From the NCBI GenBank assembly GCA_015063035.1, contig SUTG01000018.1, positions 1 through 35,533 on the forward strand: a stretch of DNA of 35,533 nt, given 5' to 3'. The DNA comes from Methanobrevibacter olleyae. Its GTDB lineage: Archaea; Methanobacteriota; Methanobacteria; Methanobacteriales; Methanobacteriaceae. Shown here one piece after another: positions 9,380 through 27,221 of this stretch. Position 1 is the stretch's first letter, and each line of letters starts with the position of its first letter. Both the position numbers and the translations under genes were made by a program. The notes beneath the pieces are model-generated. The model did no database searches. It saw only the letters and a program-made list of their open reading frames with translations, and had not been told where the DNA came from.

Positions 9380-10468
9380 ATGACAATTTATGGTAAAAAA
9401 TGGGGAACTTTTAAAGTATCTGATATATTTAAATTAGAAACGGATAATGATATTTCGGACTCTCAAAATTTACCTGAAGGCGATTATCCTTTGGTTTCAG
9501 CAAAAAAAATGAAAAACGGTGTTGATAAATTCATTGATACTGAAAAAATTAATGATAAACATGCTATTACCTGGAATAAACAGGGGGATGGAGGCGCTGG
9601 ATTGTCTTTTTATCAACCAGTACCATTTGCAAATAAAAGTACCGTATTTGTTTTAAGACCTAAGAAAAAATTATCAAAACACCAAATGATTTTTATCGTT
9701 TCACTTTTAAATAAATATCATGGCATTTTTAATCATGGGTATGGATTGTCAAAATCTAGATTTGAAGAACTTACAATACAATTGCCTATTTTAGAAGATG
9801 AAAAACCAGATTGGGATTTAATTCAACAATATATGTTCAATTTAGAACAGGAAAAGGTAAATAAATGCTTAAAATATATTAATCAAAGGATAAATGAATT
9901 AAATTATAAAAAATTAGCGCCTTTAGAGAATAAAAGTTGGGAACAATTTTATATTGGAGATTTGTTTACAATATCTTCAGGAAAGAGATTGACAAAAGCA
10001 GATATGAAACCTGGATCAACTCCTTTTATTGGAGCCACTTCTTTAAATAATGGAATTACTAACTACGTCAATAATACCAATAATTCAATGGATAGCAATG
10101 TATTAGGTGTTAATTATAATGGTAGTGTAGTGGAAAATTTTTATCATCCTTATACTTGTTTATTCTCAGATGATGTTAAAAGATTTCACTTAAAAGATTA
10201 TCCTGACAATAAGCATGTGTTATTGTTTTTTAAAACTATCATATTAAAACAAAAAGTTAAATATATGTATGGTTATAAGTTTAACTCTAAACGAATGAAA
10301 CAACAAATTATTTTAGTTCCTGTTGATGATGAAGGCAATCCTGATTACAAATATATGGAACAATATATGATTAACTTAGAAATCAAATTGAAGAATAAAT
10401 ATAAAAAACATCTTCAAAATCAAATTTATTCAAATTATATTTCACAAAAAGAAAATTTAATGGTTTAA
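9380..10468 (+). CDS. specificity (S) subunit of the BcgI-like RM system
   Basis: The 362-aa protein has two target-recognition halves. The first opens WGTFKVSDIFKLET and the second WEQFYIGDLFTISSGKRL (about residue 190); each is followed by a YPLVSAKK/TPFIGATS-type strand and a helical conserved region. This is the HsdS/BcgIB pattern, in which each half reads one part of a split DNA target. Its ATG directly follows the methylase stop codon (TAAATG), so the two are translationally coupled. No separate HsdR gene follows, which supports a IIB-like system rather than classical type I. The TAA stop lies in the GTTTAAATT extension of dif-like site D2, so the end of the reading frame is set by the repeat. 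Confidence 0.87.
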   Translation: MTIYGKKWGTFKVSDIFKLETDNDISDSQNLPEGDYPLVSAKKMKNGVDKFIDTEKINDKHAITWNKQGDGGAGLSFYQPVPFANKSTVFVLRPKKKLSKHQMIFIVSLLNKYHGIFNHGYGLSKSRFEELTIQLPILEDEKPDWDLIQQYMFNLEQEKVNKCLKYINQRINELNYKKLAPLENKSWEQFYIGDLFTISSGKRLTKADMKPGSTPFIGATSLNNGITNYVNNTNNSMDSNVLGVNYNGSVVENFYHPYTCLFSDDVKRFHLKDYPDNKHVLLFFKTIILKQKVKYMYGYKFNSKRMKQQIILVPVDDEGNPDYKYMEQYMINLEIKLKNKYKKHLQNQIYSNYISQKENLMV

Positions 10469-10565: not shown

Positions 10566-11096
10566 ATGTTTGGAAAAGTAAAAGAAAATCTTGAAACTAA
10601 TAAATTGATAAGCAAATATAATATTCATAGATACACATTTGGAATGTTCTTAGAGAAGAAAGGAATACCAAAAACTCAAGGTACACCAGAACTCGTTGAA
10701 GAATTTATGAATGATAACACTTGGATTGAACAGGTTGACATTACTTGTATTGTGGAGTTGAATGAAACTTATTTAGATGTCAATAATGCCGCAGGAACAG
10801 TATTTGGAGGAGGTTATAAAAACTACACTATGACAAGTCGTAAAAAAGTATCTGTGAAAACAAATGCATACATTGCTCAAAAAGGTATTATTTTCAAAAA
10901 AGCAATAAATAAAGCTGAAGACTTAAGATTGCCATGGGAAGAGATTACTGATTGTATTGTTGATGGTAAGACAGTTGATGTAGTTTGTGATAATGTTTCT
11001 TTTACTGCACATTTTACTAATAAAACAATTAGTGAAATATTTGCTAGTTACATCAATGAACACAAGAAAGGTCAAGTTGATGATGGTTGGGCTTAG
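10566..11096 (+). CDS. uncharacterised protein, possible PH-like fold, in a dif-bounded module
   Basis: I do not recognise this gene. ATG at 10566 gives 176 aa and is preceded by GGGTGATT at 10555-10562; an in-frame ATG at 10542 lacks such a site. The protein is soluble, with no cysteine cluster or membrane span. The first 55 residues are charged and helical (FGKVKENLETNKLI). The rest alternates beta-strand-like stretches (ITCIVELNETYLDV, YIAQKGIIFKKAI, EEITDCIVDGKTVDVVC) and ends with a helix (ISEIFASYINEHKKG). This strand pattern resembles bacterial PH-like domains, but that is only an impression. It is the sole gene between sites D2 and D3, which have the same orientation and identical centres. 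Confidence 0.7.
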   Translation: MFGKVKENLETNKLISKYNIHRYTFGMFLEKKGIPKTQGTPELVEEFMNDNTWIEQVDITCIVELNETYLDVNNAAGTVFGGGYKNYTMTSRKKVSVKTNAYIAQKGIIFKKAINKAEDLRLPWEEITDCIVDGKTVDVVCDNVSFTAHFTNKTISEIFASYINEHKKGQVDDGWA

Positions 11097-11151
11097 ATAT
11101 ATGTTTTAAATTTTTTGAAAAAATTTTGACTAATTTTTTTCGGTTTGATTA

Positions 11152-11179
11152 ATTTTATTAAACCCGAGTTTTACGAAAC
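11152..11179 (-). repeat. dif-like site D3
   Basis: Minus strand: left arm GTTTCGTAAAA (consensus), centre CTCGGG, right arm TTTAATAAAAT (three changes). The extension is TAATCAAAC, a variant shared with D4. Confidence 0.87.
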
Positions 11180-11232
11180 GATGAAAAATATTTGAATCTT
11201 TATAAGCAGGTATTTTCTCTATTTATTTAGGT

Positions 11233-11735
11233 ATGGAATCTGTATCTCAACAAAAATTAGATTATTTTAATAAAGGAAAGACTGTTGAAATGAACAAAAA
11301 AGCATTAGCTCTATTAAGAGAAAATAATATTGTAAGTATTGTTCAGTTATTGGTTGGTCTTCCAGATGAAACAAAAGAAAGTATGCTTCAAAATGAACTT
11401 CTTCTAAAAGAAGGGGGGGGCCTGATTTAGCTCATTTTTATTTTTTGACTCCTTTGCCATGGACAGAATTTGGTAAATCTATGGAAGATAAAATATCGGA
11501 AAATAATTGGGAAAAATGGGATTATAGACATCCTATTGTCAAATTGAATGATTTAACTCCTGAAGAAATTATTAAAATGTCTAAAAAGATCAAGTTAACA
11601 TTTAATTTTAATCCTAAGAAAGTAGCAAATGTTTTAGGTATTGAAGATTCATATAGGAGAAATTTTATAGTTAATTCTTTAATTCAGAGTTTAAGACAAA
11701 GATCTGGACAAAATGAAAATCCTAATTTGCAATAA
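11233..11735 (+). pseudogene. truncated and frameshifted B12-binding radical SAM protein remnant
   Basis: Two consecutive reading frames (11233-11430 and 11445-11735) are parts of one gene. The first reads KTVEMNKKALALLRENNIVS then LVGLPDETKESM, the hallmark of the C-terminal part of BchE-like B12-binding radical SAM enzymes. The second continues with FLTPLPWTEFGKSMEDKI and WDYRHPIVKL from the same family. They are split at a run of eight G (11413-11420). With six or nine G the frame runs through as KEGGPDLAHFYFLTPLPW. The N-terminal cobalamin domain and the radical SAM CxxxCxxC core are absent, so even a repaired frame would be a fragment. It starts about 50 bases after site D3. A length-variable poly-G tract is an alternative to simple decay. 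Confidence 0.82.
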
Positions 11736-13386: not shown

Positions 13387-14583
13387 TCAATCCTCCTTAA
13401 GCATGATTTGGATGATAAATTTTACAACTCTTAAGGAAACATCAAGGTTTCTTGCAAAATCTAAATCAGTGATAATATCATTCATATAAGCATAAATTAA
13501 TGAATTAATATAATACTCCCCATTTTTAGTAATTGTTTTTCTTGCAATTCTCCTATCCCCCTGAATCTTATTTTCATTTATTTCCTCTGGAGTTAATTCT
13601 TTTTTCACCCTAGGCGGCCTTTTAGATTCAGTTTTAGGAGAATCAAATATGAATTTGTTCAATTTTTCTTTGAATTTTTCATACTCTTTTTTAGTGATGA
13701 AATTTTCATTTAGGAATTTTCTAACAATAACTTCATTGCTAACTCCATATTTTTTAGATAATTCTTTAATTAATTTTTCATCTGTAAAATTCTCAACATT
13801 TCTATTTTCTACTTCTTGTTTAATTACTGTTGAAGGAATTAAAATTTCACCTGCTATAGCATTACATTTAACTTCAGTATAATCTTTAATGTTTAATGAA
13901 TAGAAATTACTTAATCCTTCTTTTTTAAGTAAAATGTGTGCTAATTCATGGAAAAGAGTGAATTTTTTAGCATTATCACTTTCTTGATGATTAATACCAA
14001 TAATAGGTAATTTATCATAATAAATAACATAACCTCGTAAATCCTCAGGAGGGATTTCATAAAATTGAAAAACCAAAATACCTAATTTTTCAATTTGGAT
14101 GATCCAATCATCAGTTGTGAAATTTTTCCTTCTAGCGGTATTCAATCTTACAAAGTTATTTATTGCTTCAATTGCTTCATCAATTGTATTGACATTACAA
14201 TCCTTTAATTTAAAATCAGGAATAATAAAATCTTCATCATCTTCTTCAATGTCCAATAAAGTTTCACGTCTGGCTTTAGCATTTCTTAATTCAAAAACAA
14301 TTTTTGAAGAGGATTTCACTTTTTTATTTTTAACAGTTCTGAAATCAGCAAATGGTTTTTCATAAACTGGATCATTAGCATTGAAAAACAAGTGAGGAGC
14401 TATATGATAAATTTTAGATAACTTTATGATATCATTATATTTTAATTGGCCTGTTTTTTCCCAATTATCTAAAGTTTCTTCTTTGATTCTCATTTTTTGA
14501 GCAACTGTTTTTTTATCATAATTGACTGATTCTCTAGCCCAGACTAGCCAATTTTTGTTTGCTTGTATTACTTCAGTGCTCAT
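13387..14583 (-). CDS. HTH-XRE / ImmA-IrrE metallopeptidase, probable antitoxin-regulator
   Basis: This 398-aa protein combines an N-terminal XRE helix-turn-helix (about residues 14-65, VNYDKKTVAQKMRIKEETLD) with an ImmA/IrrE zinc-peptidase domain carrying HELAH at 212-216 and a probable third ligand at Glu237. The charged C-terminal part (about 260-398) resembles the extra region often seen in partners of DUF4411 proteins. In related pairs such proteins bind the operon promoter, and the peptidase can cleave a repressor. Here it is the first gene of a two-gene minus-strand operon. It starts at ATG after GGAGGAGACTA-type sequence (complement of TAGTCTCCTCC), a strong ribosome binding site. Which protein is antitoxin is inferred from family context only. 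Confidence 0.85.
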   Translation of the reverse strand: MSTEVIQANKNWLVWARESVNYDKKTVAQKMRIKEETLDNWEKTGQLKYNDIIKLSKIYHIAPHLFFNANDPVYEKPFADFRTVKNKKVKSSSKIVFELRNAKARRETLLDIEEDDEDFIIPDFKLKDCNVNTIDEAIEAINNFVRLNTARRKNFTTDDWIIQIEKLGILVFQFYEIPPEDLRGYVIYYDKLPIIGINHQESDNAKKFTLFHELAHILLKKEGLSNFYSLNIKDYTEVKCNAIAGEILIPSTVIKQEVENRNVENFTDEKLIKELSKKYGVSNEVIVRKFLNENFITKKEYEKFKEKLNKFIFDSPKTESKRPPRVKKELTPEEINENKIQGDRRIARKTITKNGEYYINSLIYAYMNDIITDLDFARNLDVSLRVVKFIIQIMLKED

Positions 14584-21631: not shown

Positions 21632-21659
21632 GTTTCGTAAAACTATTGTTTAATGAACT
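21632..21659 (+). repeat. dif-like site D7
   Basis: Both arms are consensus (GTTTCGTAAAA and TTTAATGAACT) with centre CTATTG and extension AAATTAAAC. It marks the left edge of the second mosaic region, just after asd, and lies in the 3' flank of the minus-strand zinc-ribbon gene. Confidence 0.93.
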
Positions 21660-22141: not shown

Positions 22142-22169
22142 GTTTCGTAAAACTTTGGTTTAATGAACT
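22142..22169 (+). repeat. dif-like site D8
   Basis: Both arms consensus, centre CTTTGG, extension AAATTAAAT (one change). It separates the zinc-ribbon module from the structured-RNA module. Confidence 0.93.
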
Positions 22170-22229
22170 AAATTAAATAATAGTTAAAAATTAGTATATT
22201 TTCTGTTGTATTTAAATTTTTGTAAAAAG

Positions 22230-22386
22230 AGATGGTTTGAGATTATCCTTGTTACATCCCAAAAACAGAAGAGATTCTGCAAAACCATCTTCCCAAAGGA
22301 TAATCTCATCTGAAGCATGAAAGGAAAAATAGTACACCAGAAAAAAACAAGACATAGAAATTTGTAGTAAAAAACTTTCATGCTTC
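22230..22386. ncRNA. candidate structured RNA between two dif-like sites
   Basis: This stretch has no convincing coding capacity but is dense in perfect inverted repeats. Stem A: AGATGGTTT 22230-22238 with AAACCATCT 22282-22290. Stem B: GAGATTATCCTT 22239-22250 with AAGGATAATCTC 22296-22307. Stem C: GAAGCATGAAAG 22312-22323 with CTTTCATGCTTC 22375-22386. A and B interleave (A, B, A', B'), which is pseudoknot order or two mutually exclusive folds. Inside lies CAGAA-GAGA-TTCTG (22266-22279), a hairpin with a GNRA-type loop on the plus strand. On the minus strand the last stem strand runs into CTTTTT, like a terminator. The strand of transcription is undecided. A minus-strand frame (22184-22381, 65 aa, Phe/Cys-rich) starts inside stem C but lacks a good ribosome binding site. 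Confidence 0.55.
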
Positions 22387-22390
22387 TTGA

Positions 22391-22418
22391 GTTTCGTAAA
22401 ACTCGGGTTTAATGAACT
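22391..22418 (+). repeat. dif-like site D9
   Basis: Both arms consensus, centre CTCGGG, extension AAATTAAAC. The centre equals that of D2 and D3, which lie in the opposite orientation. Confidence 0.93.
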
Positions 22419-22434
22419 AAATTAAACAAAAAAC

Positions 22435-22528
22435 AAGAAAATAAGTAAAAAGAATAAGAAAATAAGTAAAAAGAATAAGAAAATAAGTAAAAAGAATAAG
22501 AAAATAAGTAAAAAGAATAAGAAAATAA
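22435..22528. repeat. 21-bp tandem repeat, about 4.5 copies
   Basis: The unit AAGAAAATAAGTAAAAAGAA plus T repeats exactly from 22435 (copies at 22435, 22456, 22477, 22498, 22519). It lies between site D9 and the thi4 stop codon. There are no spacers, so it is a simple minisatellite and not CRISPR. Confidence 0.93.
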
Positions 22529-22536
22529 AATGAAAA

Positions 22537-26658: not shown

Positions 26659-26697
<39 letters not shown>

Positions 26698-26727
26698 GAA
26701 ACTAAACCATTATTATAGGAACTAATT

Positions 26728-26880
26728 CTAATCTAAACCTTTGATTCATTTACATTTCACACCATTTTCACATATTTTCTAATCTAAACCTTTGATTCAT
26801 TTACATTTCACACCATTTTCACATATTTTCTAATCTAAACCTTTGACTCAATTACATTTCATACCATTTTCACATATTTT
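26728..26880. repeat. 51-bp tandem repeat, three copies
   Basis: Copies begin at 26728, 26779 and 26830 with CTAATCTAAACCTTTGA; a fragment (CTAATG) begins at 26881. The third copy carries a few substitutions. Confidence 0.93.
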
Positions 26881-26964: not shown

Positions 26965-26974
26965 TTTTATATAT
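26965..26974 (+). promoter_or_regulatory. TATA box of the histone gene
   Basis: TTTTATATAT is about 50 bases ahead of the GTG start, giving a leader of about 25 bases. Confidence 0.65.
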
Positions 26975-27020
26975 GGTTATTCAAAAATATTATATTAATA
27001 AGGAGTGTGGAGGTGAAAAT

Positions 27021-27221
27021 GTGAGTGAAATACCAGTTGCACCAGTTGTACGTATCTTAAAAGATGCAGGTGCAGAAAGAATCAGTGATGATGCTAAGAA
27101 GGCTTTTGCTGATGCAGTGGAAGCTTCCGCTGAAGAATTAGCTAAAAAAGTCATCAAAGCAGCAGCACACGCTGGCAGAAAAACTATTACTGTCGACGAC
27201 ATCAAGTTCATCTGTGAATAA
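27021..27221 (+). CDS. archaeal histone
   Basis: GTG at 27021 gives a 66-aa histone (SEIPVAPVVRILKDAGAERISDDAKKAF...), with GGAGGTGA at 27009-27016 just ahead; longer in-frame starts would add 16 residues not seen in the family. The three-helix histone fold is complete: the RI..DA pattern in helix 1, the long helix 2 (DAKKAFADAVEASAEELAKKVIKAAAHA), GRKTITVDDI, and a short C-terminus without a tail. Such proteins form dimers that stack on DNA and wrap it in about 30-bp steps. Confidence 0.95.
   Translation: MSEIPVAPVVRILKDAGAERISDDAKKAFADAVEASAEELAKKVIKAAAHAGRKTITVDDIKFICE

Follow-up and report, generated by a model that had tools for sequence, protein, structure and literature searches.

Between two Xer/dif-like sites on a contig of the rumen methanogen Methanobrevibacter olleyae we found a shortened copy of R, as we call a non-coding element that recurs in Methanobrevibacter. 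R is probably a structured small-RNA gene of ~155 nt, a reading to which we give a probability of roughly one half. Among the explanations weighed here, a lineage-specific structured small RNA, likely a candidate of the minus strand, appears to be the most likely one. The features are compiled in Table 1; the window is the whole stretch of DNA that was analysed (35,533 nucleotides). If expressed, R would represent a small-RNA family of rumen methanogens without an Rfam match, in a setting (defence islands) that makes RNA genes easy to overlook. With an RNA-only module between dif sites, the exchange of dif modules would also reach archaea and non-coding cargo.

Repeats and Borders of the Module in the Window

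The first-pass annotation had described a non-coding, structured module bounded by dif sites. This description is supported. The perfect inverted repeats of 9, 12 and 12 bp which it had listed (stems A, B and C) are all present, with stem B being 13 bp rather than 12 bp long. Likewise, the interleaved order A-B-A'-B', the hairpin with a 5-bp stem and GAGA loop and the CTTTTT following the last arm on the minus strand were recovered.

Chance levels were determined with 1000 dinucleotide-preserving shuffles of the 214-bp module. One or more perfect repeats of at least 12 bp occurred in 5 of the 1000 shuffles and two such repeats in none of them, whereas a perfect repeat of at least 9 bp was present in 231 (23%). 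Consequently, stems B and C lie beyond chance and call for an explanation, while stem A alone lies within chance and does not. Compared to shuffled sequences the module folded better on both strands, with z-scores of -2.5 for the plus strand and -1.8 for the minus strand; the corresponding values after trimming were -4.6 and -2.5, respectively.

The dif-like sites flanking R are exact (0 expected by chance) and of the Xer type, with inverted arms on both sides of the module. The shape of the dif-like sites in the window fits archaeal dif, which has been described as a single copy per chromosome (PMC8371274). In contrast to that description, multiple sites per genome were observed. Six are located in the window, at 21633, 22143, 22392, 23452 and 24157 (+) and at 10464 (-), most of them differing in the 4-bp core, and 13 of 19 genomes of the genus carry dif-like sites, often several clustered together. 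The sites in the window bound single-gene segments (99-aa zinc-ribbon/TPR, R, Thi4, zinc-ribbon), and R itself is flanked by the Thi4 gene and the 99-aa zinc-ribbon/TPR gene, each of them dif-bounded. Between the right dif site and Thi4 (22428-22532) there are ~5 copies of a 21-bp tandem repeat, AAAGAATAAGAAAATAAGTAA.

On Acinetobacter plasmids, p-dif modules are single-gene segments between Xer recombination sites. The segments described here resemble them in being bounded by Xer sites with different core spacers. However, they are located on archaeal genome contigs, the R module contains no protein gene, and their mobility is putative. A related paper on p-dif modules is PMC11705084.

Table 1: Features of the R module in the window and copies of family U. 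Positions refer to the window unless a genome or locus is named.
Feature	Position	Strand	Remarks
dif-like Xer site, left border, core TTTG	22143-22177	+	exact match to TTTCGTAAAACNNNNGTTTAATGAACTAAATTAAA
BRE/TATA promoter ACAAAAATTTAAATAC (minus)	22208-22223	-	directed away from R, toward dif site and 99-aa gene
Stem A, 9 bp	22230-22238 / 22282-22290		overlaps B at base 22238; lineage-specific, not conserved
Stem B, 13 bp (12 bp in relatives)	22238-22250 / 22296-22308	-	repeat search, alignment of relatives
Inner hairpin CAGAA-GAGA-TTCTG, within loop of B	22266-22279		kept in 7/8 copies, broken in G009d
Stem C, 12 bp	22312-22323 (3' arm in minus reading) / 22375-22386	-	
Stem C arm	22375-22386	-	predicted 5' end of minus-strand RNA in full-length copies
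Conserved linker GGAAAAATAG	22323-22332		alignment of copies
65-aa open frame, rejected as gene	22184-22381	-	no Pfam match; reading frame shifted in relatives
dif-like Xer site, right border	22392-22426	+	starts 6 bp past stem C
Copies of U	G012 C1:454140-454320 (L058), L061, L065, L067-L073, L105, L107		

Copies of R in Related Genomes

A covariance model search of 139 Methanobacteriaceae genomes detected nine copies of R, together with decayed and miniature ones, in six genomes, four belonging to the same genus and two to another. A DNA search of relatives gave copies besides that of the window in the own genome and in G009, G012 (a single contig of 2,937,203 bases) and G013. Copies of R are mostly 78-90% identical. 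The miniature copies of G012 and G009 (n = 2) possess the same stem B arms with another loop, and the arm spacing differs between R and these copies by about two helical turns. Rfam yielded no match up to E = 10 for the window stretch and none for the homologues, and plasmids and phages contained no match to R. In viral contigs neither R nor the dif pattern nor the core pattern of a second family, U (see below), was present; only chance palindromes within phage genes were seen there. At locus L057 a decayed 3' half and a 5' half of R (317-400 and 13724-13988) are inverted and lie ~13 kb apart, and the genes between them resemble a mobile element (primase/helicase-like).

The borders of the module differ between the window copy and those of G013 and G009. 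The dif site of G013 interrupts R ahead of the far stem C arm, only the beginning of stem B remains on contig 9 of G009, and in G009a the dif site is found on the opposite side of R. In the window the right dif-like site occupies the place of the TATA-like region which is seen in full-length R copies.

In the loci compared here, full-length R usually lies beside genes of anti-viral defence (DndFG, type III R-M, GmrSD-like, type II REase, SNF2 helicase). Co-oriented downstream or on the flank are DndF and DndG in G012, type III methylase and restriction subunits in G110, a TPR protein, a methyladenine glycosylase and a type II REase in G009b, and DUF285 proteins with an SNF2 helicase in G009d and on contig 22 of G000, the other side being occupied by a Methylase_S-like or a GmrSD/LmuB-like protein. 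R might be a functional RNA of archaeal defence islands, for example a regulator or guide of the co-oriented defence operons, with dif modules ferrying RNA-only genes between methanogen chromosomes; this far-reaching combination we consider quite unlikely. Like type III toxin-antitoxin RNAs of the ToxI class, R would be a small, structured RNA encoded among defence genes or close to them. However, R contains no tandem repeats, including the pseudoknot repeats of that class, and the tested neighbour proteins of the R copies comprise no known toxin and no ToxN-like protein.

Conservation and Anatomy of R

In minus sense, full-length R contains, in this order, the conserved sequence TTAGGTATCC (diverged in G009d), the TATA-like sequence TTTATATG, TTTAAATG or TTTATGTG, a spacer of ~21 nt, hairpin C, whose long loop is rich in T, and hairpin B enclosing the inner hairpin. 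A short tail leads to the BRE/TATA promoter of the following gene or RNA. The TATA-like sequence is found on the minus strand ~29 nt outside stem C, i.e., at one TSS distance, in 4/4 full-length copies, and the window copy lacks it. The motif shared by these TATA regions is carried by R copies alone; other matches ahead of genes were at control level.

Eight copies were aligned. The arms of stem B vary at only 1 of 24 columns, whereas their loop varies at 21 of 45 (Fisher p = 0.0003). Since stem B is invariant, covariation carries no information on it. In stem C 92% of the cells are paired and two pairs have changed on both sides (AU/GC and GC/AU), a count not above shuffles; the counts for the whole structure did not exceed shuffles either. 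Folding of the alignment with RNAalifold gave z-scores of -3.1 to -4.4 against column-shuffled controls; both strands folded better than the controls and the minus strand had the lower energy. Four of the eight copies do not contain the minus-strand start, yet stem B is kept in them. R is a conserved, non-coding and foldable sequence in several genomes, as would be expected of a structured small RNA gene.

Archaeal intergenic small RNAs are known, e.g., sRNA154 and sRNA162 of Methanosarcina mazei. Like these RNAs, R is a short, intergenic, hairpin-rich and lineage-restricted candidate of methanogens. In contrast to them, it is a sequence-based candidate, is repeated, is tied to defence islands and dif sites and belongs to no Rfam family.

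Proposed RNA Gene and Its Strand

In favour of an RNA gene we count the nine copies in six genomes, the fixed arms of stem B, the miniature copies, the folding, the changes in stem C and the lack of a conserved frame. Counted against it are the invariance of stem B with respect to covariation, the divided evidence for the strand, the four of eight copies without a start and the lack of a good BRE ahead of the minus-strand TATA-like box.

The repeats of R and their conservation, its homologues and context, its lack of coding content and its truncation at dif are observations; its transcription, strand, ends and function we infer as follows. In full-length copies the TATA-like box would serve as a minus-strand promoter element, placing the RNA start at the 5' arm of hairpin C. 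The RNA would consist of hairpin C, directly followed by hairpin B with the inner hairpin, and would stop immediately ahead of the next gene's promoter. Hairpin B, invariant in sequence, may be the part bound by a protein or a partner RNA. Acting in trans, the RNA would be a small regulator of its host islands. Xer/dif recombination presumably removed the promoter side of the window copy, which as a result is possibly silent or driven from elsewhere.

On balance we lean towards the minus strand as the RNA strand. In G012 and G009a stem C is paired at 12/12 positions on the minus strand via two G-U pairs and at 10/12 positions on the plus strand, and in one miniature copy a T-G on the minus strand corresponds to a C-A on the plus strand. 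The spacing of the TATA-like box to stem C points to the same strand. So do the TATA-like box and the T8 run of the miniature copy of G012, both of which are on the minus strand, and, in the copies without dif, the shared orientation of R and the gene or RNA downstream of it.

Alternative Explanations

The main rival is a DNA-level regulatory element acting in cis, in which inverted AAGGATAATCTC half-sites would bind a regulator of the next minus-strand promoter; we regard it as rather unlikely. It agrees with arms which are conserved as sequence, beyond mere pairing, and with the difference of about two helical turns in the arm spacing of the miniature copies. The inner AAGGATAATCTC half-site also lies close to the next promoter: in every copy examined a BRE/TATA promoter directed away from R starts 14-17 nt past stem B. 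With a promoter matrix built only from promoters of family U, the best match beside stem B was this minus-strand promoter (seven copies); the scan of G012 was centred on its miniature copy, and the same match is there the promoter of U. However, the miniature copy has no promoter at a distance of 14-17 nt, and the cis element leaves stem C, the inner hairpin and the conserved linker unexplained. Furthermore, lone AAGGATAATCTC sites in the 19 genomes are about as rare as expected by chance, lie mostly in coding sequence and are not positioned ahead of promoters. There is thus no regulon of such an operator, which was rejected, and this weakens the cis element.

The same RNA gene may be read from the plus strand, starting with stem B and continuing with an A-/C-rich internal loop, the GNRA hairpin and stem C. 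We consider this unlikely, although several observations point to it. The plus strand contains no T-run longer than 5 (usually 3), while runs of 6 to 8 occur in loops of the minus strand. The inner loop GAGA is of the GNRA type on the plus strand, the z-score of the trimmed window module is the more negative one (-4.6), and the truncations among the aligned copies are always on the same side, so that all truncated copies lose the plus-strand 3' side and keep the B end. However, a better explanation of the TATA box 30-33 nt ahead of stem B is a minus-strand promoter that drives the next gene, because the box is also found beside family U where R is absent. In addition, the G-U pairs of stem C favour the minus strand.

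A palindromic mobile repeat of the MITE or REP type, or a relic lacking any function of its own, would likewise account for multiple copies in a genome, some of them decayed or partial, for the patchy distribution and for the locations in islands. R showed neither terminal repeats nor target duplications, however, and the copies are old, as judged from their identities, with the stem B arms still fixed; a mobile repeat or relic is therefore improbable.

The first-pass annotation had proposed a pseudoknot or switch formed by stems A and B, with a topology recalling the nested pseudoknots of HDV-like self-cleaving ribozymes. This reading fails because stem A is within chance and is not conserved, and we regard it as scarcely tenable. 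The 9-bp helix A exists fully paired only in the window and in its near-identical sister in G013; 8/9 pairs are formed in the recombinant G009a. Over the eight copies 64% of the cells of helix A are paired, and 5/9 pairs depart by broken cells only. Similarly, loop-tail pairing at A reached significance in the window and G013 alone; in the other lineages it was no better than shuffled. The pseudoknot A-B was rejected. R resembles HDV-like ribozymes in a helix interleaved with another one enclosing an inner hairpin, in the window lineage only. It differs from them in that this helix is not conserved, in the lack of a catalytic core or P4 and in the lack of an Rfam match.

A small minus-strand protein of 65 aa is of negligible likelihood: an open frame with ATG is present and G012 contains a partly similar frame, but indels which are not multiples of three shift the frame between copies and Pfam gave no match. 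No conserved protein of this kind was found, and the opinion of the first-pass annotation that no convincing protein is encoded is now supported by the comparison with relatives.

Family U and Further Observations

A second multicopy RNA candidate, U, adjoins R on the same strand in G012, G009b and G110. Its layout comprises a BRE/TATA promoter, a stem, a loop with ACATATCACCCCCTTTACATATG, a second arm and often a T-run. A 39-nt stretch of U is identical in at least nine genomes of the genus. Stems of unrelated sequence (GAACTAATCC, GAGAATAATATG, TTGATTACCCTA, AACTATAC) are each matched by the second arm, and by inspection the stems of U appear to covary. RNAalifold detected no structure in an unguided, sequence-only alignment of U, because stems of different sequence do not align. 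Rfam contained no match for U. The loop ACATATCACCCCCTTTACATATG, which is fixed among the copies, resembles the anti-Shine-Dalgarno end of 16S rRNA. With this fixed loop, U would give a testable entry to post-transcriptional control in Methanobrevibacter. Copies of U lie beside genes recognised by eye as argininosuccinate synthase and inorganic pyrophosphatase.

In the window, decayed tandem copies of the U loop are located at 26686-26880 (-) beside an archaeal histone gene (26973-27221). Between R and a decayed copy of U, loci L037 (~11000-11351) and L040 (10124-10381) each encode a small hydrophobic protein, judged by eye to be ~50 and 63 aa long. For the L037 protein, the ribosome-binding region resembles the target of the U loop.
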